Of a stretch of 64,000 bases of DNA, positions 18,408-38,761 are shown piece by piece. Within the stretch, counting starts at the first letter, position 1; each line of letters starts with the position of its first letter. Location of the stretch: the NCBI RefSeq assembly GCF_030068445.1, contig NZ_JAQPOK010000089.1, positions 1-64,000 of the forward strand. Direction: 5' to 3'. The position numbers were made by a program, and so were the translations under genes. The notes under the pieces are model-generated. The model made no database searches. It saw nothing but the letters and a program-made list of their open reading frames with translations, and was not told the origin of the DNA. The DNA is from Roseofilum halophilum BLCC-M91. Its GTDB lineage: Bacteria > Cyanobacteriota > Cyanobacteriia > Cyanobacteriales > Desertifilaceae.

Positions 18408-18579
18408 ATCTTGTCTAATTGTTATGGGGAATGCATGACCAGCACGTGGCGCTATATTTTGCTAAATTGGTGAGGTAATCTTGATGCAGGGTGGCGGCGA
18501 TCGCCTCGGGTCGTCTGTTTCTCCTCTACCTATAGATTTCTTTGCCTACTTCCCCCAAGCGATTCAGAGCAAAAAGATT

Positions 18580-21500
18580 ATGATTAATCTAAGCGGCTAT
18601 CAAATTCTGGCCAAGATCTACGAAAGTGACAAAACAGTAGTCTATCGGGGTTGTCAACAAAAAGGGAATCTGCCAGTGATTCTCAAGTTACTCAAATCTG
18701 AGTACCCCACCGGGGAAGAGAGAAATCGATATCAGCAAGAGTTTGAACTCCTCAATCGCCTCAATCTCGATAGTGTGGTTAAGGCTTACGCCCTAGAAAC
18801 CTATCAAAACTCTTTAGTCATGGTTTTAGAGGATTTCGGGGGAGAATCCTTAAAACAGTTGTTAGCCTCTCAGAAATTTACCCTGTTAGGATTTTTGAAC
18901 CTAGCGCTCCAAATTGTCAAAAGTTTGGGAGATTTGCATCAAGCCAATATTATTCATAAAGATATCAATCCGGCCAATATTGTCTTTAATCCCGCCACCG
19001 GAAAAGTGAAACTGGTCGATTTAAGTATATCGGGAATGCTCAATCGAGAGGATGAAACCTCTCGTCAGGCTCCCACCATTGAAGGGACTTTAGCTTATAT
19101 GTCCCCGGAGCAAACCGGAAGACTTAATCGCAGCTTAGACTATCGCACAGATTTCTATTCCTTGGGGGTCACCTTTTATGAACTCCTGACCCATAAGCTT
19201 CCCTTTGAAGCCACAGAAACGATGGAACTCATCCATTGTCACATTGCCAAACAACCCGTTGCTCCCCATATCGTCAATCCAGAAATCCCCCAGATTGTCT
19301 CTGATTTGGTAATCAAATTACTGGCTAAAAATGCTGAGGAGCGCTACCAAAGTAGTTGGGGATTACTGGCCGATTTAGAGCGGTGTTTGGTGAATCTGAA
19401 AGAAAACGACCAGATCGATTTATTTCCGTTAGGGGAACAAGATGTTTCCGATAATTTTAAAATTCCGGAAAAACTCTACGGCAGGGATAAGGAAATCGAT
19501 ACGCTGTTAGCAGCTTTCGAGCGAGTCGCGGATGGTCATAAGGAATTGATGCTGGTGAGCGGCTATTCGGGGATCGGTAAATCGGCTTTAGTGCAAGAAA
19601 TTTATAAGCCCATTACCCGCAAAAATGGCTATTTTATCCTCGGAAAATTCGATCAATTTCAGCGTAGTATTCCTTATTTTGCTATTGTTAAAGCGTTTTC
19701 TGAATTAGTCAATTTACTGCTCACAGAAAGTGAAGAAAAATTAAAAGCCTGGAAAGAGAAGTTATTAGCCGCCCTTGGCCCCAATGGGCAAATTATTATT
19801 GATGTTATTCCGGAAATCGAATATATTATTGGCCCCCAACCCTCCGCGATCGAATTAGGGCCAGCAGAATCCCAAAATAGATTTAATTTAGTCTTTCAGA
19901 ATTTTGTGCAAATTTTCTGTCGCCCAGAACATCCCTTAGTGATGTTCTTAGATGACTTACAATGGGCAGATTCTGCCACGTTGAAGTTGATTGAGCTGAT
20001 GCTGACAGAAGCAGAGGTGAAACACTTTTTCTTAATTGGAGCCTATCGAGATAATGAAGTCAGCCCCAGTCATCCTCTGATGATGATGGTGGATTCTCTG
20101 CGAATTCAGTCGGTGAACTTGAGCGAAATTCACTTAAAAAATCTGAACTTACATCAAATTGGTCAGTTGATTTCTCAAACCTTGCATCAAGACCAAAGTT
20201 CGGTTCAGCCTTTGGCAAATTTGATCAAAAATAAAACAGAAGGAAATCCATTTTTTGTGAATGAGTTCCTGAAAACTTTATACCAAGAAAAGCTTCTCAG
20301 GTTTGTTCCGCCTCAGCCGGATACGATGGGCGGATGGGCTTGGGATTTAGAAGAAATTGAGTCCATGAGTATTACAGAAAATGTGGTGGACTTAATGATT
20401 GGTAAGTTACGCAAGTTACCGGAAAAGACACAGGAAGTTTTACGATTATCGGCTTGTTTGGGAAATCAATTTGATTTAAATACTTTGTCTTTAATTTATG
20501 AAAAAGAATCCTATGGCACGTTTCAAGATTTGTTGCCTGCGATTGCAGAAAAAATGATTCAGGCCAATTCGGGTCGCGATGTGGTGGATTTTGATTTAGT
20601 GACGGCTCCTTTATTAATTTTAAATTATAAGTTTTCCCACGATCGCGTTCAGCAAGCGGCTTATACTTTAATTGATGAGGTGGATAAAAAGGCGGTGCAT
20701 CTGAAAATCGGGCGAATGCTGTTGGAGAGAACGCCGGTTGAATATCGCAGTGAACGGATTTTTGAGTTGGTCGATCATATGAATGTGGGTCGATCTTTGA
20801 TTGCGGAAAGGGATCAAATCCTGGAATTGGCTCAACTGAATTTAGAGGCAGGAAAACGGGCGAAGGATGCTACGGCTTTTGTGGCTGCTTCTCAATATTT
20901 AAGGGAGGCAATGAGTCGTCTGCCGGATAATATTTGGCAGTTGGATCATGGGTTTGCGTTTTCGTTGTATAGAGAACGGGCAGATGTGGAGTATCTGAAT
21001 GGAAATTTTGCTGAATCAGAAGCTTTGATTGATGAAGTTTTAGCTCATGCTGAGTCTGATTTTGAGAAGGCGGAGATTTATAATATTTTATTAATTCAAA
21101 ATACCCTCAGAGGTCAATATCAAAAGGCGGTGGAAATTGGTAGAACTGCTCTTGATTTATTAGGGATAGATTTACCGACTGAAGGTTTAGATCGGGTAAT
21201 TCCCCAGCAGTTAGAAAAAGCGGGTGAAGCGCTAGGGAATCGCCCGATCTTATCCTTGCTCGATCAACCGAAAATGGAGAATCCTGTCAGCGAAATGAAG
21301 GTGAAGTTATTAAATAATTTGGCTCCACCGACTTATATGCTGAATATTCAGTTGTGGACGCTGATGATTCTGAAGGGTGCAACGTTGGTTTTAGAGGAGG
21401 GATATACTCCAGAAGTGGGATTCTTTTTGCCTACCTATGGCATTTTGTTGGTGAATTTGTTTGGAGAATATCGTAATGGTTATGATCTGGGACGGGTGGC

Positions 21501-23967
21501 TTATCAGTTGAATCAAAAGTGGGGACATCCGACTTATAAGGCTGGTGTGTGTTTAATTAGCACTTTGAATTATTGGTTTAATCCGGTGAAAGATTCAAAT
21601 CCTTTAGGCAATGAGGCTTATCAATCTGCGCTGGATGCGGGTGATTTACCCTATGGGGGTTATGTGTTGCATAATCAGTCTCTTAATTTCTTTGTCCAAG
21701 GTAAACCGATTAATGAGATTTTAGAGGAGATTCCTAAGTATTTACCTTTTGCCGAGAAAACGGAAAATCAGTTGGTGACGGATATTTTACTGGGTTTACA
21801 GTTGGTACTGTTGAATTTGGACGATCAAACGGATGAGCCGTTAAATTTTGATGGGCCGAGTTTAACGGAAGGGGAGTATGTGGAGCTGTGTCAGCAAAAT
21901 CAGAATACGTTTGCGTTGTGTATTTATCAGATTTTTAAGATGCAAACGCTCTATTTGTATGGCAATCTGGAGGAAGCTTTAGCTCTGAGTGAGACGATCG
22001 CTAATCAACTTCAGTCGATTCTGGGAACTGTGCCGGTTACTGAGTATAATTTTTATTCTTCTTTGCTGTGTCTATCGGCTTATGGGATGACAGAGGAGAC
22101 GGAGCGAGAGGCTCTGTTAGCTAAGGTGAGAGAGAATCAACGGCAATTAAAGGTATGGTCGGAAAATTGTGCGGCGAATTTCTTGTCTAAATATTTACTG
22201 GTAGAAGGGGAATTGGCTCGCGTGCAAAATGATCTGGAGCTGGCGATCGATTTGTACGATCGCGCGATCGCCGTTGCTACGGAGCATGAGTTAATGCCGG
22301 TGCAGGCGATCGCTAATGAACGGGCGGCGGATTTTTGGCTGGACAAAAATAAAGTCTCCTATGCTCTGGTGCATTTACGGGAGGCTTACTATCATTACCA
22401 GAAATGGGGCATCAAGCGCAAAGTGGCATCTCTGAAATTAGCCTATCCCCAATTAGAAGCCACATTAAATCAATCCACCAATGGCATAGATGTGGCGAAA
22501 ACCATTCACACCTCTACCAATTCGATTTCTCATAGCCTAGATTTAAATACAGTCCTCAAAGCCTCTCAAGCCATTTCGAGTGAAATCGTTTTAGATAAGC
22601 TTTTAGGTAACTTAATGCAAATCTTGATTGAAAATGCCGGAGCGCAATCTGGATTTTTGCTGCTGCCCAAGGAGGGCAAGTTGCTGATTTCTGCGTCGGC
22701 TTCTGTCGATGAGGAAACGATTATTAATCAAGACTCAACAGCCGTAGAAACCAGTGAAGAGCTTCCCATTACTGTGATTAACTATGTGGAGCGATCGCTC
22801 TCGGATGTGGTGTTAAGTCATGCCTGTCGAGATGGGCAGTTTACTAACGATCCTTATATTACTAAGCGCCAGGTTAAATCTCTGCTGTGTATCCCCATTG
22901 TTAGCCAAGGGCAACTGATTAGTATTCTCTACTTAGAGAATAACCTCACTACCGATGCCTTCACCAGCGATCGCATTGAAGTGCTGCAAGTTTTATCCTC
23001 CCAAGCGGCGATCGCCCTTGATAATGCTCTCCTCTATGCCTCCGTCGAGCAAAAAGTGCAAGAGCGCACCCAAGAACTCAACCAAAAAAACCAAGATTTA
23101 TCCCAAACCCTCGAAGAGCTACAACGAACCCAAGCCCAACTCATCCAAACAGAAAAAATGTCCGGTTTAGGTCAAATGGTGGCTGGTGTTGCCCATGAGA
23201 TTAATAATCCCGTCAGTTTTATCTATGGGAACCTCGCCCCCGCTACAGAATATGTTGAAGATTTACTGTCTTTGATCGATCTCTATCAAACCCATTACCC
23301 TAATCCTGTTGAAGAAGTTGAAGATCTGATTGAAGATATCGATCTCGACTTTATCAGTGAAGACCTCAAAAATCTTCTCACTTCCATGCAAGTGGGAGCT
23401 GAACGCATCCGGAAGATTATTCTTTCTCTACGCAACTTCTCCCGCCTGGATGAAGCAGATAAAAAACCGGTTAATCTGCATGATGGATTAGAGAGTACGC
23501 TCTTGATTTTGCAAAATCGCTTCAAAGAGTCGGGGAATGAAAAAGAAATTAAAATTATTAAAGAGTATGGCAATTTACCTCTAGTCAATTGCTACGCTTC
23601 GCAACTCAATCAAGTGTTCATGAATTTATTAACCAATGCTTGCGATGCGATGCAAGATCAGAGAAATACCGAAACCCCTGAAGATCGGCAACCCTCGATT
23701 ACGGTGCGGACGCAAGTAACGGATCGCCAATCGGTGGAAGTCATTATTGCTGATAATGGCCCGGGGATGAGCGAGGAAACCTTGAAAAGAATCTTTAATC
23801 CCTTTTATACCACTAAGCCGGTCGGTTCTGGAACTGGTCTAGGGTTATCCATCAGTTATCAAATTGTGGTGGAAAAACATAGCGGACAACTCAGTTGTAT
23901 TTCTCAACCGGGAGAGGGCGCTCAGTTTATTGTGGAAATTCCTTTACGACCTACGGAGGAGGAATGA
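18580..23967 (+). CDS. Hstk-type Ser/Thr kinase-ATPase-GAF-histidine kinase
   Basis: Giant two-headed sensor kinase of about 1795 aa. The order is: Ser/Thr kinase domain at about 1-270 (IIHKDINPANIVF, KLVDLS, GTLAYMSPEQTGR), AAA/STAND-like ATPase with Walker A SGYSGIGKSALV near 365, a long helical TPR-like middle, a GAF domain, a coiled coil, then HisKA (GVAHEINNPVSF) and HATPase (GTGLGLSISYQIV). This is the architecture of the Hstk family of cyanobacteria. I choose ATG 18580, giving MINLSGYQILAKIYES, because upstream codons to 18481 look non-coding. The kinase head has DLS in place of DFG but keeps the metal-binding Asp. No response regulator is adjacent. Ligand unknown. Confidence 0.93.
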   Translation: MINLSGYQILAKIYESDKTVVYRGCQQKGNLPVILKLLKSEYPTGEERNRYQQEFELLNRLNLDSVVKAYALETYQNSLVMVLEDFGGESLKQLLASQKFTLLGFLNLALQIVKSLGDLHQANIIHKDINPANIVFNPATGKVKLVDLSISGMLNREDETSRQAPTIEGTLAYMSPEQTGRLNRSLDYRTDFYSLGVTFYELLTHKLPFEATETMELIHCHIAKQPVAPHIVNPEIPQIVSDLVIKLLAKNAEERYQSSWGLLADLERCLVNLKENDQIDLFPLGEQDVSDNFKIPEKLYGRDKEIDTLLAAFERVADGHKELMLVSGYSGIGKSALVQEIYKPITRKNGYFILGKFDQFQRSIPYFAIVKAFSELVNLLLTESEEKLKAWKEKLLAALGPNGQIIIDVIPEIEYIIGPQPSAIELGPAESQNRFNLVFQNFVQIFCRPEHPLVMFLDDLQWADSATLKLIELMLTEAEVKHFFLIGAYRDNEVSPSHPLMMMVDSLRIQSVNLSEIHLKNLNLHQIGQLISQTLHQDQSSVQPLANLIKNKTEGNPFFVNEFLKTLYQEKLLRFVPPQPDTMGGWAWDLEEIESMSITENVVDLMIGKLRKLPEKTQEVLRLSACLGNQFDLNTLSLIYEKESYGTFQDLLPAIAEKMIQANSGRDVVDFDLVTAPLLILNYKFSHDRVQQAAYTLIDEVDKKAVHLKIGRMLLERTPVEYRSERIFELVDHMNVGRSLIAERDQILELAQLNLEAGKRAKDATAFVAASQYLREAMSRLPDNIWQLDHGFAFSLYRERADVEYLNGNFAESEALIDEVLAHAESDFEKAEIYNILLIQNTLRGQYQKAVEIGRTALDLLGIDLPTEGLDRVIPQQLEKAGEALGNRPILSLLDQPKMENPVSEMKVKLLNNLAPPTYMLNIQLWTLMILKGATLVLEEGYTPEVGFFLPTYGILLVNLFGEYRNGYDLGRVAYQLNQKWGHPTYKAGVCLISTLNYWFNPVKDSNPLGNEAYQSALDAGDLPYGGYVLHNQSLNFFVQGKPINEILEEIPKYLPFAEKTENQLVTDILLGLQLVLLNLDDQTDEPLNFDGPSLTEGEYVELCQQNQNTFALCIYQIFKMQTLYLYGNLEEALALSETIANQLQSILGTVPVTEYNFYSSLLCLSAYGMTEETEREALLAKVRENQRQLKVWSENCAANFLSKYLLVEGELARVQNDLELAIDLYDRAIAVATEHELMPVQAIANERAADFWLDKNKVSYALVHLREAYYHYQKWGIKRKVASLKLAYPQLEATLNQSTNGIDVAKTIHTSTNSISHSLDLNTVLKASQAISSEIVLDKLLGNLMQILIENAGAQSGFLLLPKEGKLLISASASVDEETIINQDSTAVETSEELPITVINYVERSLSDVVLSHACRDGQFTNDPYITKRQVKSLLCIPIVSQGQLISILYLENNLTTDAFTSDRIEVLQVLSSQAAIALDNALLYASVEQKVQERTQELNQKNQDLSQTLEELQRTQAQLIQTEKMSGLGQMVAGVAHEINNPVSFIYGNLAPATEYVEDLLSLIDLYQTHYPNPVEEVEDLIEDIDLDFISEDLKNLLTSMQVGAERIRKIILSLRNFSRLDEADKKPVNLHDGLESTLLILQNRFKESGNEKEIKIIKEYGNLPLVNCYASQLNQVFMNLLTNACDAMQDQRNTETPEDRQPSITVRTQVTDRQSVEVIIADNGPGMSEETLKRIFNPFYTTKPVGSGTGLGLSISYQIVVEKHSGQLSCISQPGEGAQFIVEIPLRPTEEE

Positions 23968-29588: not shown

Positions 29589-30452
29589 TTAAGTAGTGGC
29601 ATCAAATGTTTGGGCTTTGAGAATGACCATGTTGCTTCCTACGACGGAGTTACGGGCTAATAAATGACCGTCGAGATCGAGAATTTCTAAACGGCTAAAG
29701 TCGAGTTTTTGCGATCGCCGCAACATATCGTTAGCGAGGCGCTTTTGTTGCTCTAAAGGTAAGTCATACCAGCGCCGATCGACTTTTAGCACCAGGAGGC
29801 TATTCAAGAAATCGGCTTCTAATGAATCAATTAAACCCTCTTCATATTTTTCGGTTAAGCGGTTGACTTGCTCTTGAATGGTGACAATTAACCGTTGTTC
29901 GGGAGTGAGAACGGGAGGAGGGGGTGGGGCAATGTCTACAGGAATGGGTTCTGGAATTTCTTCTTCTTGTTCTTCTTGCTCAACAGGTTCTTCTGCTTCT
30001 GCCATTTCTGGGGGTTCGGGTTCTTGAGTCACTTCTTCTATGGGTTCTGGGATCTCTTCTTCTGGGATCTCTTCAGGGATAGGTTCTGGGGCGATCTCTG
30101 GTTCTTCCACTTCTGGCGGCGGTTCTGGAACTTGCGCGACTTCTGGAGCGGGACGGGGAATGAGGGAAACGGAGAGGATCAGAGAGACGGTGATGATTGC
30201 ACCTAGAGCTAGACTGAGGTCAAAATCATTGATGTTCTGATTCCAGGGAGCCGGTAGCCATCGGCGCACCCGTGCTAAAAGCCGATCCCACAGGGGAAAT
30301 ATTGGCTCTTGGGGATCGGAAAAGGGAGAGGTTTCTAGGCGATCGGCGATCGCCTGCAACCCAGTAATGAGCGATCGCAAGATCTTCAGCATTTGCCGTT
30401 TCACCCAAGAGGGACTCTCTACGGGTGGACGATTAGAAGGTTGTCCTGTCAT
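29589..30452 (-). CDS. Hypothetical single-pass membrane protein with Pro/Glu-rich linker
   Basis: 287-aa protein of unknown function. A cytoplasmic N-terminal part of about 75 residues is followed by one membrane helix (ALGAIITVSLILSVSLI, around residues 82-98). A long Pro/Glu spacer of about 85 residues comes next, then a helical C-terminal domain (from LTPEQRLIVTIQEQVNRL) to the end. The layout recalls cell-envelope spanning proteins, but no family is recognised. It is directly upstream on the minus strand of a MITE-like element and 17 bp downstream of the NADH dehydrogenase gene, so the two may share a transcript. Confidence 0.75.
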   Translation of the reverse strand: MTGQPSNRPPVESPSWVKRQMLKILRSLITGLQAIADRLETSPFSDPQEPIFPLWDRLLARVRRWLPAPWNQNINDFDLSLALGAIITVSLILSVSLIPRPAPEVAQVPEPPPEVEEPEIAPEPIPEEIPEEEIPEPIEEVTQEPEPPEMAEAEEPVEQEEQEEEIPEPIPVDIAPPPPPVLTPEQRLIVTIQEQVNRLTEKYEEGLIDSLEADFLNSLLVLKVDRRWYDLPLEQQKRLANDMLRRSQKLDFSRLEILDLDGHLLARNSVVGSNMVILKAQTFDATT

Positions 30453-30469: not shown

Positions 30470-31831
30470 TTAATTTTTGATCGCTGGAAGGGGCATATCT
30501 TCCGTCGTATCCAGATTTTCCGGAGTAATGGTTAACAGGAAATCTTCACCGGTAATTAACCGCGCTCCTCGACCTCTGGTTAGGTAGTTCCATCCCCATT
30601 GCACCATCACCACTAATTTATTATCAAACTCAATTAAATAGTAAATATGGGCAAACACCCAGGTTAACCAGGCAATAAATCCCGTGAGCTTCATCCATCC
30701 CAAGTCTACCACCGCCGCATTTTCCCCAATCACCGCTAGACTGCCCACTTCGGTATAGCGGAATGGGGAATGGGTTTGGCCGCGCAGTTCCCGTTTGATC
30801 CATTGGGCCACATATTTGCCCTCTTGCATAGCAACAGGAGCAATACCGGGTAAGGGACGCTCTCCTTCTCCTTGATGGGAAAAGTTGGCTAAGTCACCGA
30901 TAACAAAGATATTAGGATAACCCGAAATGCTTAAGTTATCTTCGACCATCACCCGACCCGCTCGGTCTAGGGCGACTCCAGTTTTTTCATGCAACACTTT
31001 ACCGAGTCCAGAAGCCTTGACTCCAGCAGCCCAGAGGATGGTACGGGCGGGAATTAATTTTTCCGTTTCTCCCTGACGTACCGTTACTGACCCTTCCGTT
31101 ACCTGGGTGACTAGGGTCTGGGTTTGTACCTTTACCCCTAGCTGGGTGAGGTCTGATGCTGCTCTCGCGGACAATTCTGGCGCGTAAGGGGGTAAAATGC
31201 GATCCATGCCTTCTAGGAGCAAAATCCGGGCGCTGGTGGTATCGATGTGGTGAAAGTCATTTTTGAGAACGCTATGGGCCAGTTCGGCGATCGCCCCCGC
31301 TAATTCTACCCCAGTGGGGCCGCCCCCCACAATCACGAAGGTGAGCCAGGCTTTTTGTTTTTCGGGGTCGGTTTCCTTTTCTGCGGCTTCAAAGGCCCCA
31401 TAAATGCGACGACGCATGAGTAGAGCATCTTCGATGGTTTTTAAGCCAGGGGCAATACTTTGCCATTGGTCATTGCCGAAGTAGTGATGCTTCACGCCCG
31501 TGGCCAGAATCAGGGTATCGTAGGAGAGGGTACGATCGCCGAGGGTAAGCCGTTGGCGATCGGGATCGATATCCGTTACCCGGTCTAAGAGAACTTGGGT
31601 ATTTTTATTTTGATTGAGAACCAGACGCAAGGGTGAAGAAATATCGGCTGGGGATACACTGCCCGTAGCCACTTGATAGAGTAAGGGTTGAAACAGGTGA
31701 AAGTTTCGCTTATCGATTAACGTCAGTTTAACCGGTGCTTTGCCTAGGGCTTGAGCTGCATAAAGCCCCCCAAAGCCTCCTCCGACAATCACGACATGGG
31801 GAACAGAGGGTTGGGTATTGTTATCAACCAT
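30470..31831 (-). CDS. Type II NAD(P)H dehydrogenase
   Basis: FAD flavoenzyme of the NDH-2 family, passing electrons from NAD(P)H to quinone without pumping protons. The FAD Rossmann motif GGGFGGLYAA is near residue 17. The NADH motif IVGGGPTGVELAGAIAEL is near residue 165. Other conserved segments are TLILATGVKHHYFG and IFVIGDLA. Near the C-terminus a hydrophobic stretch (LTGFIAWLTWVFAHIYYLI) probably binds the membrane. Length (453 aa) is typical. Confidence 0.93.
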   Translation of the reverse strand: MVDNNTQPSVPHVVIVGGGFGGLYAAQALGKAPVKLTLIDKRNFHLFQPLLYQVATGSVSPADISSPLRLVLNQNKNTQVLLDRVTDIDPDRQRLTLGDRTLSYDTLILATGVKHHYFGNDQWQSIAPGLKTIEDALLMRRRIYGAFEAAEKETDPEKQKAWLTFVIVGGGPTGVELAGAIAELAHSVLKNDFHHIDTTSARILLLEGMDRILPPYAPELSARAASDLTQLGVKVQTQTLVTQVTEGSVTVRQGETEKLIPARTILWAAGVKASGLGKVLHEKTGVALDRAGRVMVEDNLSISGYPNIFVIGDLANFSHQGEGERPLPGIAPVAMQEGKYVAQWIKRELRGQTHSPFRYTEVGSLAVIGENAAVVDLGWMKLTGFIAWLTWVFAHIYYLIEFDNKLVVMVQWGWNYLTRGRGARLITGEDFLLTITPENLDTTEDMPLPAIKN

Positions 31832-31924: not shown

Positions 31925-33343
31925 CTATAATCTATAAAAACCGTCATTTCGTCTAGGTTCTGGCCGTTGTGATGGGGAGATAGGGGATTTAAATTCCCGA
32001 AATATCATGCGATCGCGCCCTTGTTTTTTCGCTTCGTAGAGCGCTTGATCCGCAACTTCAAATAACTCTTCTCCTGATGTGGAATGGGTAGGAACGGTCG
32101 AAGAAATCCCCATACTCATCGTGATCAATGGACTCACCAAAGAGGCTTGATGCTCAATCCCTAAATTTCGCACATTGCTTTGAATTTCTTGAGCCACAAT
32201 CCAAGCCCCAGATGCTTGAGTATTGGGTAGCACGACCACAAATTCTTCTCCCCCATATCGCGCCACTAAATCGGCTGGTCTTTTTAATGTTTTTTTAAGA
32301 GTTTGGGCAATTTTTTGTAAGCATTCATCCCCCATTTGATGCCCATAGGTATCATTATAGCGCTTAAAATAGTCTACATCACAAATAATCATCGATAAGG
32401 GCCCTTGCTCTCGGGCCAAGCGATACCATTCTCGATTAAATGTTTCTTGTAAACAACGACGGTTCGCCACTTGAGTTAAACCATCTAAATTGGCCAGTTG
32501 ATTTAATTCCTGGTTAACTTTTTCTAATTCGGCAGTTCTTTCGGCCACTTTTCGTTCTAAAGTATGGGAATATTCTCGAAGTTGTTCATAAAAGAGGGCA
32601 TTTTGAATAGAGGCTGCGGCTTGGGAAGCTAGAGCAATAAATAATTTTAGATCTTGGGCAGTATATTCTAGAGTGCGATCGCTACTAATTTGAATCACAC
32701 CTAATTTTCCCGTTTGAGTCATTAACGGGCAACACATTAGAGAAGCAATCTTAAAAGTTTGCGAAATAAAGCGAGTATCTAAATCAACTTGATTGACAAT
32801 TTCTGCTTGCCCTGTCTTAAAAACATGGCCATAAATTCCTAAATTGGCAGATATTTTTTGACCTAATATGACTTGATTTTCGTTTTGTTTCGGGTAAAAT
32901 ACTTGCATCATACCATCCTGGTAAATCATCACCACCAGGGCATTACCCGGAATTTGTTTTAAGGCTTCATCTGCCATCAGCTTGATCACTTCCTGGACGT
33001 TCAAGCACGTGGATAGTTTGGCAGAAATATCATATAAAAAATTTAGTTCTTCATATTTATCTAAAGCATCAATAGCTAAAACTTTCTTGTTGATTTCTGT
33101 TTCAATCAAGTAAATGAGCATTTGTGTGATGGGATGATCTAATAGAGGACTCACAACCCAACCGACAATCGAGTTTTCTATAGAAATTTCATACCCTTGA
33201 AAATCCCCTAAATTCAAATTGCCGATAATCGGTCTTTGATGGTCATCTAAAACCGCTATCGGATGGTCATCATCCAAGAGTCGCTGAATTAATCCTTTCA
33301 TCCTTGGTTTGAGGATAATTTTTTTAAACTTGAGGTTAATCAT
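31925..33343 (-). CDS. GAF-GGDEF diguanylate cyclase
   Basis: Makes cyclic di-GMP from GTP. An N-terminal region of about 110 residues is followed by a GAF domain (about 110-255), a coiled coil and a GGDEF domain with an intact ARYGGEEF active site. The product-inhibition I-site RxxD is present as RPAD, five residues upstream. It starts 6 bp after the stop of the receiver gene in a three-gene operon with the kinase, so it is a likely output of that signalling chain even though the receiver is a separate protein. Confidence 0.92.
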   Translation of the reverse strand: MINLKFKKIILKPRMKGLIQRLLDDDHPIAVLDDHQRPIIGNLNLGDFQGYEISIENSIVGWVVSPLLDHPITQMLIYLIETEINKKVLAIDALDKYEELNFLYDISAKLSTCLNVQEVIKLMADEALKQIPGNALVVMIYQDGMMQVFYPKQNENQVILGQKISANLGIYGHVFKTGQAEIVNQVDLDTRFISQTFKIASLMCCPLMTQTGKLGVIQISSDRTLEYTAQDLKLFIALASQAAASIQNALFYEQLREYSHTLERKVAERTAELEKVNQELNQLANLDGLTQVANRRCLQETFNREWYRLAREQGPLSMIICDVDYFKRYNDTYGHQMGDECLQKIAQTLKKTLKRPADLVARYGGEEFVVVLPNTQASGAWIVAQEIQSNVRNLGIEHQASLVSPLITMSMGISSTVPTHSTSGEELFEVADQALYEAKKQGRDRMIFREFKSPISPSQRPEPRRNDGFYRL

Positions 33344-33349
33344 TCACCG

Positions 33350-33739
33350 TTACTCATATAGAAATCCAAGAATTTCTCTAGATTTTGCTAACACTTCTTT
33401 GGGCCGAAAAGGTTTGGTCATATATAAGTTAGCGCCCATGGCAATTCCTGTTTTTTTGTCAAATTCTTGACCTTTTGCGGTGAGCATAATAATATAGATA
33501 TGACCCAAGCTCATATTTTGCTTAACTTGGGCACAAACTTCTAATCCATTCATTTTCGGCATCATTACGTCCAAAAATACTAAATCAGGTTTCTCTTGTT
33601 CAATAATCTGCAATGCTTCTTGGCCGTTTTTAGCCGTGAGTAATATTACGTCATCTTCATCTTCGAGCTTTTCAAGGGCTTGTTCCATAAGGATAAGAAT
33701 ATTTGGCTCATCGTCAGCGATTAAAACTTTTTTATTCAT
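33350..33739 (-). CDS. Single-domain response regulator (CheY-like)
   Basis: 129-aa receiver domain with no output domain. The phosphoacceptor Asp lies in LVFLDVMMPKMNG, the acidic pair in IADDEPN, and the conserved Lys in MTKPFRPKEVL. Its start codon overlaps the stop of the upstream kinase gene by 8 bp, and it is followed 6 bp later by the GGDEF gene. It is therefore the likely partner of that kinase and may act by protein contact. Confidence 0.93.
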   Translation of the reverse strand: MNKKVLIADDEPNILILMEQALEKLEDEDDVILLTAKNGQEALQIIEQEKPDLVFLDVMMPKMNGLEVCAQVKQNMSLGHIYIIMLTAKGQEFDKKTGIAMGANLYMTKPFRPKEVLAKSREILGFLYE

Positions 33740-36731
33740 TAAATTCCTCTAAAATATGTGCTTTGACAACGGTTGCATCCAGGGGAAGCAAGCAAGAAAA
33801 TTTACTTCCTTGATTGAGGGTGCTTTCGACCCAAATTTTTCCGCCATGATATTCAATAATTTGTTTACAAATGGGTAACCCTAAGCCAGTGCCTTTGGGT
33901 TTGTTGGTTAAAATATCTCCCACTTGCTTGAATCGCTCAAATACTTTATCCTGGTCTTCTGGAGCAATGCCAATTCCCGTATCAATAATGGCAATCATCA
34001 AATGATCGTCCACTACCTTGGCTTCACAAGTAATGGTTCCTTGCTCCGTAAATTTTACGGAATTAGAGATTAAATTAATGACGACTTGAATGATGCGATC
34101 GCGATCGACTTCAATCACGGGGAGATGGGGATCGATATTTTTAATGAATTGTAAATGATTCCGTTCAATCAAAGAGGATGTTGCCGCGATCGCTCGATCT
34201 AAAATCACTTGTGGATCGACGGGTTGAATATTCCAATCCACTCGCCCAGATTCCATCTTAGCAATATCTAAAACGTCATTAATTAAGGATGTTAAGCGTT
34301 CTGCCTCGGAGATGATGATTTCAATATTATTACTAACTGCAATCACCGATCGCTTAACTTTTCTATCCTCTTGCACTGTCACCGGGAAAATTACGTCTTC
34401 TAATTTTTCCTGAATCATTTCCGCAAATCCTAAAACGGATGTTAACGGGGTGCGTAATTCATGGGAAACGGTGTTCAAAAAATCAGTTTTCATCCGATCC
34501 ACTTCCCGTTCTACTGTGACATCTCGAATGAGAATGACGGAACCCATACATTGATCCCCTTCCATGCCTTCTCCCTCCTTAATAATACTGGTGGCTAGGG
34601 CTTGACCTTCCCGATTGTTGCCTAACTTTACATTCAGGGTTACAATCTCCTGGTTCCGATTCTGAATCGTCGTAATTAATTCATGTAATTCTGGAGAAAA
34701 GATTGTCCAAATATTCTGCCCTTGTAATTGCCATTTTTCTAAATTAAACATGGCTAACAAAGCCGGATTAAATCGGGTGATTTTTCCTTGAGTATCCGTG
34801 ACCAATAATCCATCGGCCAAGTTATCAACAATGGCATTTAAATCGGCTAAAGTAGTTCGCAGTTCGCTGGATCGCTTTTGAGCCTGGGAGAGTAATTCTG
34901 CCTGTTGTAGGGCGACTCCCAGTTGAATGGCAATTTTACGAGTGAACTCTATTTCCTTGGATTGCCAAGTCCTGGGTTCTGAACATTGATGAATACAGAG
35001 CAAGCCCCATAACTGTTCGCCTTTTACTAGGGGCAAAACTAAATTGGCTCGAATTTGGAATTGGTTTAAGATATCAAAGTAGCAAGGGGATAAGTTGGCT
35101 GTTTGAATGTCAGAAATGGCTTGGATTTTACCTTGATGATAATGGATGTGATGATGATCGTGAAAGCATCGATCTTGTACAATTTTTTGTAAAGTCGAGT
35201 CAAAGGGGGGGATAACATCTTCGGAAATAAATTTCCCGACTGTTTGATCGGAGTGGGAATCAAAGGCGAAAATCCCGACGCGATCGGCGTTGAGTAATTG
35301 TCTAACTTCTGTGGCGGCTGTTTGGAAAATGGTTTCTAAATCTAAGGTACGACGAATTTTATCGATGACTTCTGCGATCGCTCTCTCCCGTTGTGCTTCT
35401 TCTTCTAATTCTTCTGCCCGTTTTTTCAGTTGCGCTTCTAAGGTGCTTTGTAATTCGCTAGAGCGCTTTTGAGTTTGGGCTAATAACTGGGCTTGCTGAA
35501 TGGCTACGCCTAACTGGGAGCTAATTTGAATTAAGAAGTTAATTTCAATTTCTTGCCAATTTCTGGGGCCAGTGTTTTGAAAGGCTGCTAATAACCCCCA
35601 GAGACGCTGGTGTTGATAAATGGCTACAATGGCATAGGCTCTGGCTTGATAGGATTCTAATGCCTGAATATAACAGTCTGAAAAATCATGGGTATAAATA
35701 TCGGAACAGACGCGAAATAATTGCCCTTGCTTAAATAATTGTCCTTGGGTTGCCTGTAAATGAGTGTCTGTGACGGACAAATGTTCTAGATTTTTGAGGC
35801 TACATTCACTAATCTTACAGTTCAACTCTGGATTTTCTTGTTGACAGATAATTAAGGATTTCCAGTGTGGGTTAACGGAGTCTACTAAAAATTCACCACT
35901 CCAGTCTTCATTGAAGCGATAAATGACGACTCGATCGGCTTTGAGGAGGTGGCGGACTTCTTGGGTGGTGGTGCGAAAAATGGTGTCGAGATCTAGGGAT
36001 TGACGGATTTTGGTGATCACGGCGGCGATCGCCTGTTCCCGTTCTACAGCTTGAGCGACGGCTTGGGCTAACTGTTCGGACTGCTGCTTTTGCCCCGCTA
36101 AGACTTCTGCTTGCTGTAGGGCGACTCCTAAATGAACGGCAATATGGGAAACAAATTCTATTTCTTGGGGTTGCCAAGAGCGAGGGGCGCGACAGTGATG
36201 AATGCATAGAAGCCCCCATAAGGTCTCTCCCTTAAGCAGGGGAACCACTAAATTGGCTCGGACTTGGAATTGCTCCAAGATCTGAATATGGCAAAGGTTC
36301 AAACCTTCTTGATAAATGTCATCACAGGCCCACATTCGCCCGTCTTGGTAATATTGGGCGTAGTGATCGCCGAAACAGTGGTCTTCAATGCGAGCGGCTA
36401 AGGTTGAAGAAAACGGGGGTAGGACATCCTCGGAGACAAATTCCCCCCATTGGTAATTCGAGTTCTGGCCAAACTGATACATCCCCACCCGATCGGCATT
36501 CAAAAGCTGCCGTACTTCTCTGGCGGTTGATTGAAAAATGGTTTCTACATCCAGAGATTGGCGAATGCGAGTAATCACCGCTAAGAGGGCTTTTTCTTGG
36601 GCAATCTGAACGGGTTCTGGCTGCGTCTGGGTTGTTTTTTCCAGTTCCCATACCCGTTCTCTAAGCCGTTCAATTTCCTCTTGAAGGGCCGTATATTCAC
36701 TTGCTTTAACCACAACATACTCATCGGACAT
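33732..36731 (-). CDS. Multi-GAF (cyanobacteriochrome-type) PAS histidine kinase
   Basis: 999-aa sensor kinase with three GAF domains (about 50-210, 235-410, 455-610), a PAS domain (about 625-745) and HisKA/HATPase (SHELRTPLTSV, GTGLGLPICKQI). GAF1 has the DXCF motif D117-H-C119-F and the bilin-binding Cys147-His148. GAF3 has D520-R-C522-F and Cys550-Tyr551. Both have the following RANLVxPL segment. GAF2 keeps Cys353-Tyr but lacks DXCF and is more diverged. These are hallmarks of cyanobacteriochromes, DXCF types usually sensing blue-to-green light through two cysteines. The gene leads an operon with a receiver and a GGDEF protein. Chromophore binding itself is inferred, not seen. Confidence 0.9.
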   Translation of the reverse strand: MSDEYVVVKASEYTALQEEIERLRERVWELEKTTQTQPEPVQIAQEKALLAVITRIRQSLDVETIFQSTAREVRQLLNADRVGMYQFGQNSNYQWGEFVSEDVLPPFSSTLAARIEDHCFGDHYAQYYQDGRMWACDDIYQEGLNLCHIQILEQFQVRANLVVPLLKGETLWGLLCIHHCRAPRSWQPQEIEFVSHIAVHLGVALQQAEVLAGQKQQSEQLAQAVAQAVEREQAIAAVITKIRQSLDLDTIFRTTTQEVRHLLKADRVVIYRFNEDWSGEFLVDSVNPHWKSLIICQQENPELNCKISECSLKNLEHLSVTDTHLQATQGQLFKQGQLFRVCSDIYTHDFSDCYIQALESYQARAYAIVAIYQHQRLWGLLAAFQNTGPRNWQEIEINFLIQISSQLGVAIQQAQLLAQTQKRSSELQSTLEAQLKKRAEELEEEAQRERAIAEVIDKIRRTLDLETIFQTAATEVRQLLNADRVGIFAFDSHSDQTVGKFISEDVIPPFDSTLQKIVQDRCFHDHHHIHYHQGKIQAISDIQTANLSPCYFDILNQFQIRANLVLPLVKGEQLWGLLCIHQCSEPRTWQSKEIEFTRKIAIQLGVALQQAELLSQAQKRSSELRTTLADLNAIVDNLADGLLVTDTQGKITRFNPALLAMFNLEKWQLQGQNIWTIFSPELHELITTIQNRNQEIVTLNVKLGNNREGQALATSIIKEGEGMEGDQCMGSVILIRDVTVEREVDRMKTDFLNTVSHELRTPLTSVLGFAEMIQEKLEDVIFPVTVQEDRKVKRSVIAVSNNIEIIISEAERLTSLINDVLDIAKMESGRVDWNIQPVDPQVILDRAIAATSSLIERNHLQFIKNIDPHLPVIEVDRDRIIQVVINLISNSVKFTEQGTITCEAKVVDDHLMIAIIDTGIGIAPEDQDKVFERFKQVGDILTNKPKGTGLGLPICKQIIEYHGGKIWVESTLNQGSKFSCLLPLDATVVKAHILEEFNE

Positions 36732-36907: not shown

Positions 36908-38761
36908 TTACAAGCGAGTCTGCCAGACGGCGATCGCCCGTTGGGCCTCTGCATAAGCTGCCGTATTTTGGGGAACCAACTGGGCAGCCGCGATCGCTGC
37001 TGCTGGGCCGTCGCTGGCTAACCGCCGATAGGCAATTTTGAGAATTTCACTACTCCATTGGTTGGCTAACTGCTGGGCTTGGCTATAGCGGGGTTGATCG
37101 GCTCCAATGGTCTTCACCTGGGCGATCGCCTGATTATAAGAAGACGCTTGATTGGCCTTAACCTTGCTACTGGCTTGCTGAATCACCGTCTGATTCGCTT
37201 GCGCTTGGGCTGCCTGCTGTTGCCAGGAAGGAATCATGTTCTGGGCTTGCGAATAAACCGATACTTCCGATGGAACCAGTTGGGCAGCAGCGATCGCCTT
37301 CTGAAATTCTCCCTGAGCCGCTCGACCCATGGCAATATCCATAATCGCTTGACCCCATAACTCAATTTTTCCTTGAGCTTCGGCATAGGCCGGATTATCG
37401 GCTGAAATTTTCCGTGCTTCTTCGATCGCCTTTACATAAGGTGACGCTTGCTGAGAACCTAAAATACTGGTCACTTCTGAGAGCGTTGGCGGACTGGCTG
37501 GTTCCGGTTGAGCTGCCGGTGGAGCCACCGTTGCCGGAGCTTGGGGAACTGGTTCTGGAGAAGGCGCTGGGGAAGGCACTGGAGAAGGCGCTGGAGTCGC
37601 CGCTTCTGGAGCAGGGGCAGGAATCACCACCACTTCTGAAGGAGTGGCTGCTGGAGAAGGCCCTGGAGAACCCTGGACAGGCTCAGTCACTGTCGGGCTG
37701 GGTTGTCCTTCCACCGTGGTTAGCGCATTGCGATTGCGTAAAAATACTCCCCCAATTAAAATCAGAGCGATGCCCCCCCAAGCCAGAATCAGTAATCGCC
37801 AAAACTGTGCATCTTCTTCATTGGATTTGGGGTCTTGAGATTGGGGTTTTTTGTCAGGTTCCATAGGCTTACGAATATCTGTTGTATCTGTTGAGGTTTT
37901 CTGGGCAACAGGGCTTGGCTGAGGAACGCCCCCAGAACCGGAGGGAACACTTAACGGTTCGGTGGTACTGGAAGAGTGAGAAAGGGATTCTTCTGTTTTG
38001 GGTTCCTCAATCGGTAAAATCACCCGATGAACTCGGCCGGGAGGATTCACCACCATCAAGGCTTGTTGGTTGGGTCGATTGTGTTGATCGCTCAATTCCA
38101 TTAGCCGACGGTGCAGATAGCGATCTAAACTTGCTAATGTACTACATTGACCCGATCGCAATCCTTCCAGCAAAGCAGCCGTAAATAACCCTTGTCGTAA
38201 TTCTAAGGTCTCTTGGGAAAATTGACCCGGTTGACAAGAAAGAAGGGTGGCAATTTCTAGTTCTCGCGCTAAATTAGCCGTCTGGTTTCCTAAAAGTCCC
38301 CCAATTTGCAAACTCGATGGCCGATTCATATCCAGAACAACCAGCACATTTTCAGTGGGTAAGTCTCCTAGACGGTTGAATAAGTCAGCTATCGAGATAC
38401 CTGTGGAGGTGACTTGATTGGGATCGCTTTCAATGGGCATCAGATAGTCTTGGCCATCGATACTGGAGCCATAACCGCTAAAGAAGACCCAAAGGTGATC
38501 GTCTGGCTCTAGCTGGAATTGGGGATGCTCGCGCCGACCGATTTTGTCGATCCACCCTTCGATTGTGGGGCGATCGGGGTAAGTAGATTCTCCTTGAATG
38601 GGCTGTGAAACCTCACTCAGGAGTAAGCATTGATCCAGGGATAACCCCGCTTGATATGTCCAAAAATCAGAAAATGCCTGGGCATCTTGTTGGGCATAGC
38701 TTAACGGTTGGAAATGTTGATATTGATTAATGCCGATGGCGATCGCCCTGGTTTTTCCCAT
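36908..38761 (-). CDS. Caspase-fold membrane protein lacking the His-Cys dyad
   Basis: 617-aa protein with an N-terminal caspase-like (peptidase C14) domain, beginning with RAIAIGINQYQ and PLSYAQQDAQAF. The catalytic His of the usual SGHG is Tyr97 (FFSGYGSSIDG). The usual Cys of the DxC strand is Asn146 (VVLDMNRPSS). It should therefore be a non-peptidase paralogue, similar to variant cyanobacterial metacaspases. A membrane helix follows near residue 335 (ILAWGGIALILIGGVFL), then a Pro-rich spacer. The Ala/Gln-rich C-terminal helical region has repeated elements (AIAAAQLVP occurs twice). It is monocistronic with a strong terminator. Confidence 0.88.
   Translation of the reverse strand: MGKTRAIAIGINQYQHFQPLSYAQQDAQAFSDFWTYQAGLSLDQCLLLSEVSQPIQGESTYPDRPTIEGWIDKIGRREHPQFQLEPDDHLWVFFSGYGSSIDGQDYLMPIESDPNQVTSTGISIADLFNRLGDLPTENVLVVLDMNRPSSLQIGGLLGNQTANLARELEIATLLSCQPGQFSQETLELRQGLFTAALLEGLRSGQCSTLASLDRYLHRRLMELSDQHNRPNQQALMVVNPPGRVHRVILPIEEPKTEESLSHSSSTTEPLSVPSGSGGVPQPSPVAQKTSTDTTDIRKPMEPDKKPQSQDPKSNEEDAQFWRLLILAWGGIALILIGGVFLRNRNALTTVEGQPSPTVTEPVQGSPGPSPAATPSEVVVIPAPAPEAATPAPSPVPSPAPSPEPVPQAPATVAPPAAQPEPASPPTLSEVTSILGSQQASPYVKAIEEARKISADNPAYAEAQGKIELWGQAIMDIAMGRAAQGEFQKAIAAAQLVPSEVSVYSQAQNMIPSWQQQAAQAQANQTVIQQASSKVKANQASSYNQAIAQVKTIGADQPRYSQAQQLANQWSSEILKIAYRRLASDGPAAAIAAAQLVPQNTAAYAEAQRAIAVWQTRL

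Follow-up and report, generated by a model that had tools for sequence, protein, structure and literature searches.

Comparison with described systems of cyclase control

In response regulators of the PleD/WspR type a GGDEF cyclase with an I-site is placed under receiver control, and in the SiaC/SiaD system of Pseudomonas the phosphorylation state of a small separate partner controls the cyclase in trans; this partner, SiaC, is no receiver, and different proteins act upstream. Control by light is represented by SesA of Thermosynechococcus and Cph2 of Synechocystis, in which a cyanobacteriochrome (CBCR) GAF domain is tied to cyclic di-GMP (c-di-GMP) synthesis, the bilin of Cph2 being bound via two cysteines (PMC5812497). 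In Anabaena PCC 7120, the histidine kinase CdgK is co-transcribed with the GGDEF cyclase CdgS, and phosphorylation is proposed to increase cyclase activity (PMC9927289). In the literature consulted, c-di-GMP is placed under CBCR control by fused sensors, and cyclases are placed under receiver control in fused response regulators. Described here is an operon of three separate genes, encoding a CBCR-type sensor histidine kinase, a stand-alone receiver and a diguanylate cyclase, located in positions 1 to 64,000 of contig NZ_JAQPOK010000089.1 of the filamentous cyanobacterium Roseofilum halophilum BLCC-M91, a stretch of 64,000 nucleotides hereafter called the window.

Sensor and cyclase are fused in one protein in SesA and Cph2, whereas the window operon encodes three proteins with no CBCR GAF in the cyclase chain. 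Likewise, receiver and GGDEF domain share one chain in PleD, WspR and CdgS, whereas no receiver domain was found by Pfam in the window cyclase, and CdgK differs from the window kinase in being a hybrid kinase of the membrane with CHASE, PAS, GAF and Hpt domains and an unknown signal (CdgS and CdgK from PMC9927289). The operon lacks the defining feature of both the fused CBCR-GGDEF and the fused receiver-GGDEF systems. A motif scan of the 26 (22 + 4) other GGDEF-bearing proteins fetched from the window genome found a CBCR-type Cys motif in none of them; a DXCF string without this motif is present in two GGDEF proteins of the genome (L220 and L235; L-numbers are labels of fetched loci and f-numbers denote families), L235 being a PAS/GAF GGDEF-EAL protein below the Tlr1612-family cut-off. 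With SiaC/SiaD the operon would share the control of a cyclase by a separate small protein, the GGDEF part of the window cyclase scoring 159.6 bits against NCBIfam SiaD, far under the 290-bit cut-off. No description of a CBCR kinase, a stand-alone receiver and a separate cyclase as one system was found in the titles and abstract starts of the literature matches listed, which are mostly open-access, so that an earlier account elsewhere is possible.

Organisation, conservation and proposed mechanism of the operon

The three genes lie on the minus strand in the order kinase (36731-33732), receiver (33739-33350) and cyclase (33343-31925), as determined by open reading frame (ORF) calling. The kinase and receiver ORFs overlap by 8 bp (33732-33739) and 6 bp (33344-33349) separate the receiver from the cyclase, exactly as the first-pass annotation of this DNA had them. 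According to Pfam, the kinase of 999 amino acids (aa) carries three GAF domains (aa 61-205, 233-425 and 446-620) followed by PAS (630-742), HisKA (747-829) and HATPase_c (876-985). Its HisKA dimerisation/phosphoacceptor domain (34245-34493, minus strand) contains H757 within the SHELRTPL motif (at 756), and the N, G1, F and G2 boxes of the ATPase part are all present. The CheY-like receiver, 129 aa long (Response_reg, 2.8e-28), has the key residues D9/D10, D57 as phosphoacceptor, T87 and K109, and with no second domain it fits a single-domain response regulator. The cyclase, 472 aa long, was assigned a GAF and a GGDEF domain (2.3e-52) and contains the string RPAD-x5-GGEEF at 355-368, with the RPAD I-site at 355 and GGEEF at 364, in agreement with the earlier claim that both are intact. 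Phosphotransfer and catalytic motifs were found intact by motif scan in kinase, receiver and cyclase alike.

The same order of kinase, receiver and GGDEF genes was found in five other genomes of the genus (L009, L010, L120, L121 and L122) and, outside the genus, in a further three families (f6, f7 and f18). Two relatives, Roseofilum acuticapitatum BLCC-M154 and the metagenome-assembled genome UBA2566, show 77% identity. GGEEF is present in all five genus relatives, the RxxD I-site is absent in L122 only, and the GAF cysteines are retained save in GAF3 of L122. The window genome also contains bilin synthesis genes, with one heme oxygenase match and three ferredoxin-dependent bilin reductase matches. 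Considering the layout, the CBCR-type GAFs, the intact motifs, the bilin genes and the recurrence in the genus and in three families, a light-to-c-di-GMP chain using separate proteins, as the first-pass annotation had suggested, is the likeliest reading.

We favour, with moderate confidence, an interpretation of the operon as a split response regulator, in which the receiver, phosphorylated by a light-sensing kinase, would act on the cyclase in trans. In one of its light states the kinase, with its three candidate dual-Cys GAFs, would autophosphorylate at H757, from which the phosphoryl group would pass to D57 of the stand-alone receiver. The phospho-receiver would dock on the N-terminal domain (N-domain)/GAF module of the cyclase, and docking would change the dimer geometry via the long helix that connects the GAF to the GGDEF domain and thereby alter c-di-GMP output, the I-site providing product inhibition. 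The steps from light to kinase and from kinase to receiver are proposed because of established two-component logic and the gene overlap, and the trans step from receiver to cyclase because of the neighbourhood pattern described below and the lack of a receiver inside the cyclase. What the sequences show is how the genes are laid out and conserved, that their motifs are intact, that the front module changes partners and that cyclases bearing it tend to have a stand-alone receiver gene nearby; phosphotransfer, the docking site and the sign of the response are what we infer. As no PilZ match was found in the window genome at E<=0.001, no c-di-GMP target is proposed; MshEN gave 2 matches.

Such a split version, if true, would mean that one receiver could serve several targets or that several kinases could serve one cyclase. 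In c-di-GMP networks, a stimulus directly shown to act on a kinase is exceptionally rare according to a 2022 review (PMC8846402); a light input to this operon would therefore be of use. Gliding and positive phototaxis are known from Roseofilum reptotaenium (PMC4284477), and for a gliding, light-responsive Roseofilum the operon would offer a candidate route from light colour to second messenger; a role in gliding or phototaxis is speculation.

The N-module of the cyclase and its spread across outputs

The cyclase is built of an N-domain (residues 1-100; 33044-33343, minus strand), a GAF domain (114-248), a long helix and the GGDEF domain (284-445). Residues 1-100 correspond to no Pfam family even up to E=10. 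AlphaFold predicts for this domain alone a helix, four strands and a long helix, with a predicted local distance difference test score (pLDDT) of 72, and the same elements in the full-length cyclase with a mean pLDDT of 78 and a predicted template modelling score of 0.42. A fold search with the N-domain model (pLDDT 72) returned nothing at E<=0.001 and a second structure search with it was weak (best Z 5.6), with roadblock, GAF and PAS chains closely ranked; the lack of a confident fold relative is not evidence of a new fold. In a PDB profile search the N-module matched almost entirely through its GAF part, the best stretch beginning at profile position 97 or later in 26 of the 27 rows, with 6oap (80-249) as the exception. 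By motif scan, residues 1-250 of the cyclase, GAF included, contain no canonical bilin Cys. The best matches of the cyclase among solved structures are WspR chains, and its active site agrees with the GG(D/E)EF pattern, from which c-di-GMP synthesis is predicted; GGEEF is present in all 13 N-domain GGDEF proteins and the RxxD I-site in 10 of them.

Residues 1-248, used as a query, had matches at E<=0.001 in 88 of the order's 147 genomes, with many of the weaker matches spanning just the GAF, and a 20-row profile matched in 83 of the 388 genomes of the class (E<=1e-20). Gene neighbourhoods were read at 64 loci, namely the window, L009, L010, L089, 20 regions from a search of the order and 40 regions picked for family spread from the module matches in the order and the class. 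The N-domain was found in 65 proteins at these 64 loci, with two each in L133 and L211 and none in L206, where no called ORF had a domain match and which contributes nothing to the counts. Their outputs are a class III cyclase in 23 proteins, GGDEF in 13, a histidine kinase in 13 and another domain or nothing in 16. On representatives, Pfam identified a class III cyclase (L089, L097, L098, L109, L193), a histidine kinase (L100, L113), a SpoIIE phosphatase (L176) and a Ser/Thr kinase (L187, L191), and in L189 and L183 it found no domain beyond the N-module. An N-domain profile match was required for these counts, and GAF-only matches such as those at 18481-23967 in the window and at 4606-7116 in L137 were left out. 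The former is a plus-strand protein of 1828 aa with a GAF and a kinase-like region according to local profiles, and GAF-matching ORFs of 1763-1833 aa recur in the genome.

A tentative generalisation, to which we give less than even credence, is that N-domain and GAF form a plug through which one class of stand-alone receivers could drive unrelated enzymes in trans (GGDEF and class III cyclases, perhaps SpoIIE phosphatases and Ser/Thr kinases). Cyanobacteria might then possess a family of response regulators that are interchangeable and held together non-covalently, in which the same type of light kinase would have been rewired between c-di-GMP and cAMP/cGMP. A split design would also give a role to an undescribed domain preceding at least five different outputs.

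Association of N-module cyclases with stand-alone receivers

Stand-alone receivers were defined as receivers of at most 175 aa on the same strand and within 1 kb, a rule that overlooks opposite-strand pairs such as that of L183, where a stand-alone receiver and an N-domain protein are convergent and 10 bp apart (L183:2112-3555). By this definition, a stand-alone receiver is found beside 32 of the 36 N-domain cyclases (11/13 GGDEF and 21/23 class III), and none of the 36 has a receiver domain of its own. As a control, the 22 GGDEF proteins without N-domain of the window genome were considered. Among the 11 that are receiver-less no stand-alone receiver was found nearby (0/11), and among the 11 with their own receiver there were two (2/11). 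Fisher's exact test of 32/4 vs 0/11 gives 8e-8, a value for descriptive use only, the rows being related by descent. The receiver is upstream of the cyclase in all 11 GGDEF pairs and downstream in 20 of the 21 class III pairs. In the exception, L124, a CBCR-type kinase is followed by a receiver with 78% identity to that of the window and by a class III cyclase, whose N-module groups with the GGDEF N-module of L123 (tree support 93/87, below the tool's star); the locus reads as a putative case of an output swapped while front module and receiver were kept. The system thereby provides loci at which c-di-GMP and class III cyclase outputs have seemingly been exchanged in nature, and it lends itself to a direct test of receiver action in trans.

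A kinase with CBCR-like GAFs is located upstream within 1 kb in 10 of the 13 GGDEF cases, and in nine of these a receiver is present as well (six in the family of the window and one each in f6, f7 and f18). In the tenth, L123 (f8), the kinase accompanies the GGDEF gene and the receiver is absent; at L123:7195-8059, 865 bp without any stand-alone receiver lie between a five-GAF CBCR-type hybrid kinase and the N-module GGDEF gene. In L175 (f7) the kinase appears divided into two ORFs, one bearing a GAF and a DXCF string and the other the kinase part, and L134 and L139 have no kinase nearby. For the class III cases, 12 have a kinase lacking such GAFs, eight have none nearby and three (L124, L133 and L190) have a kinase with at least one local GAF-profile match, cysteines having been checked in L124 only. 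A second set in the window genome (L089:3646-8577) comprises an N-module class III cyclase, a stand-alone receiver and a hybrid kinase in which peptidoglycan-binding, Cache and HAMP domains occur. Since module and stand-alone receiver are commoner with class III (21) than with GGDEF (11) among the loci read, and since in most of these cases the kinase lacks such GAFs or no kinase is near, neither light nor c-di-GMP is a distinguishing mark of the split design, and in this respect the earlier suggestion was too narrow.

Several observations weigh against the split response regulator. A receiver fused N-terminal to the N-domain is found in none of the 65 N-domain proteins, the sole protein with both domains (L126) being a hybrid kinase with its receiver at the far end. 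Four N-domain cyclases (L123, L139, L133 and L193) are without an adjacent receiver, and a stand-alone receiver is near none of the 13 N-domain histidine kinases and near six of the 16 other N-domain proteins; given the kinase fusions and the other proteins without receivers, the N-module need not be a receiver dock. In the receiver family, counted over 36 rows after the two most divergent (L200 and L201) had been dropped, the conserved residues specific to it are scattered over the fold with no single output face. Six of the 13 GGDEF cases come from one genus, near relatives inflating the count, and the control consists of one genome with one ORF (L217) cut by the fetched stretch. On the sensor side, GAF3 of L122 has DCSF at the DXCF position and Ser at the canonical Cys; with both cysteine positions lost, at least this GAF is not essential.

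The likeliest alternative, which we nevertheless regard as rather unlikely, is that kinase and receiver form a light pair acting elsewhere, on the motility machinery or another regulator, with the cyclase sharing no more than their transcript and responding to ligands that its own N-domain and GAF bind. The lack of a receiver-cyclase fusion and the N-domain kinases without receivers nearby speak for it, and the weak, tied likeness of the N-domain to roadblock, GAF and PAS chains would suit a ligand- or partner-binding sensor. Against such a division stands the presence of stand-alone receivers beside nearly all N-module cyclases, across kinase types and in two gene orders. Moreover, output labels cluster in both the receiver tree and the N-module tree, for GGDEF and for class III, with none of 500 shuffles as low, although neither output forms a single clade in either tree and near-copies aid the clustering.

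Candidate light-sensing GAF domains of the kinase

For the kinase, the first-pass annotation had assigned a DXCF motif and a bilin-type Cys to GAF1 and GAF3, which the motif scan confirmed. GAF1 (36117-36551, minus strand) has DHCF at aa 117-120 and C147, followed by His, and GAF3 (34872-35396, minus strand) has DRCF at aa 520-523 and C550, followed by Tyr; both are candidates for dual-Cys CBCRs of the DXCF type. Their best solved relatives are 6oap, 6bhn, miRFP670nano and 3vv4, which we take to be bilin binders. Best E values against solved CBCR-type chains are 2.1e-39 for GAF1, 2.6e-46 for GAF2 and 9.8e-45 for GAF3.

GAF2 (35457-36035, minus strand) had been described as keeping the Cys but not DXCF, and it does have the canonical C353, followed by Tyr, and DTHL at aa 322-325; what had been missed is an insertion of about 22 residues which holds a candidate second cysteine, C310 in CSLK. 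Its top matches are GAFs of the red/green lineage (6bhn, 2.6e-46; 6xhg, 1.5e-43). Insert-Cys CBCRs have a poorly conserved CXXR/K motif in an insertion loop, and Leu replaces the Phe of DXCF (Cho et al. 2017, PMC5240096). With NpF2164g3, NpR1597g2, Mbr3854g4 and Mbl3738g2, GAF2 shares the CXXR/K insertion cysteine, this Leu and the canonical Cys (PMC5240096), which makes it a candidate insert-Cys CBCR; unlike these, it is known from sequence alone and sits between two DXCF GAFs in a kinase that seemingly feeds a separate cyclase. At the position of this His in the window GAF2, DTHL, the characterised UG1 carries Tyr (PMC5240096).

Cysteines were compared in 41 GAFs of 12 kinases, 10 of which GAFs have the insertion. 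The CXXK cysteine is present in all 10 insert-bearing GAFs, whereas a further cysteine that the window GAF2 has in its insertion is shared by just three of the 10, and the Leu at the DXCF Phe position is inconstant, with F or V in three of the 10 (L009, L121 and L010). All three kinase GAFs are candidate dual-Cys CBCRs, and bilin binding by them is what we infer from these motifs. They are probably tuned to short-wavelength light, a leaning that follows from the near-ultraviolet-to-red range of optima of dual-Cys CBCRs (PMC5240096); the colours are not readable from sequence.

It is also conceivable, if quite unlikely, that this kinase is not light-sensing in vivo and that its GAFs, free of chromophore, serve dimer signalling, so that the chain would respond to another cue. 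The loss of both cysteines in L122 GAF3 would agree with this, as would the absence of the canonical Cys from GAF1 of the related kinases L129 and L130. Against it, canonical and second cysteines are retained in 10/10 GAF1-type domains (L123 GAF1 having Q in place of H/Y after the canonical Cys) and in 10/10 insert-bearing GAF2-type domains, and the bilin synthesis genes are present in the genome.

Least likely of all is a reading in which the receiver serves as a sink for phosphate or for feedback and the kinase contacts the cyclase directly or not at all: although stand-alone receivers serve as sinks in other systems and many homologous kinases are hybrids bearing their own receivers, the window kinase has no receiver domain according to Pfam and no other response regulator was found among the scanned ORFs flanking the three genes.

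Neighbouring genes

A scan of the operon for promoters and terminators was uninformative, giving fewer sites than in shuffled sequence. At 93 bp past the cyclase lies an NDH-2-like oxidoreductase gene (30470-31831, minus strand), for which co-transcription with the operon is possible. A functional link between the two was not adopted, the gene downstream of the cyclase in L122 being on the opposite strand. The NDH-2-like gene is followed by that of a proline/glutamate-rich protein of 287 aa (29589-30452, minus strand) with no Pfam match at E<=0.01. Immediately upstream of the kinase, a gene at 36908-38761 (minus strand) encodes a caspase-domain protein (PF00656) of 617 aa, and in L009, L010, L120, L121 and L122 an ORF of 601-619 aa, compared by place and length and not by family, occupies the same position.

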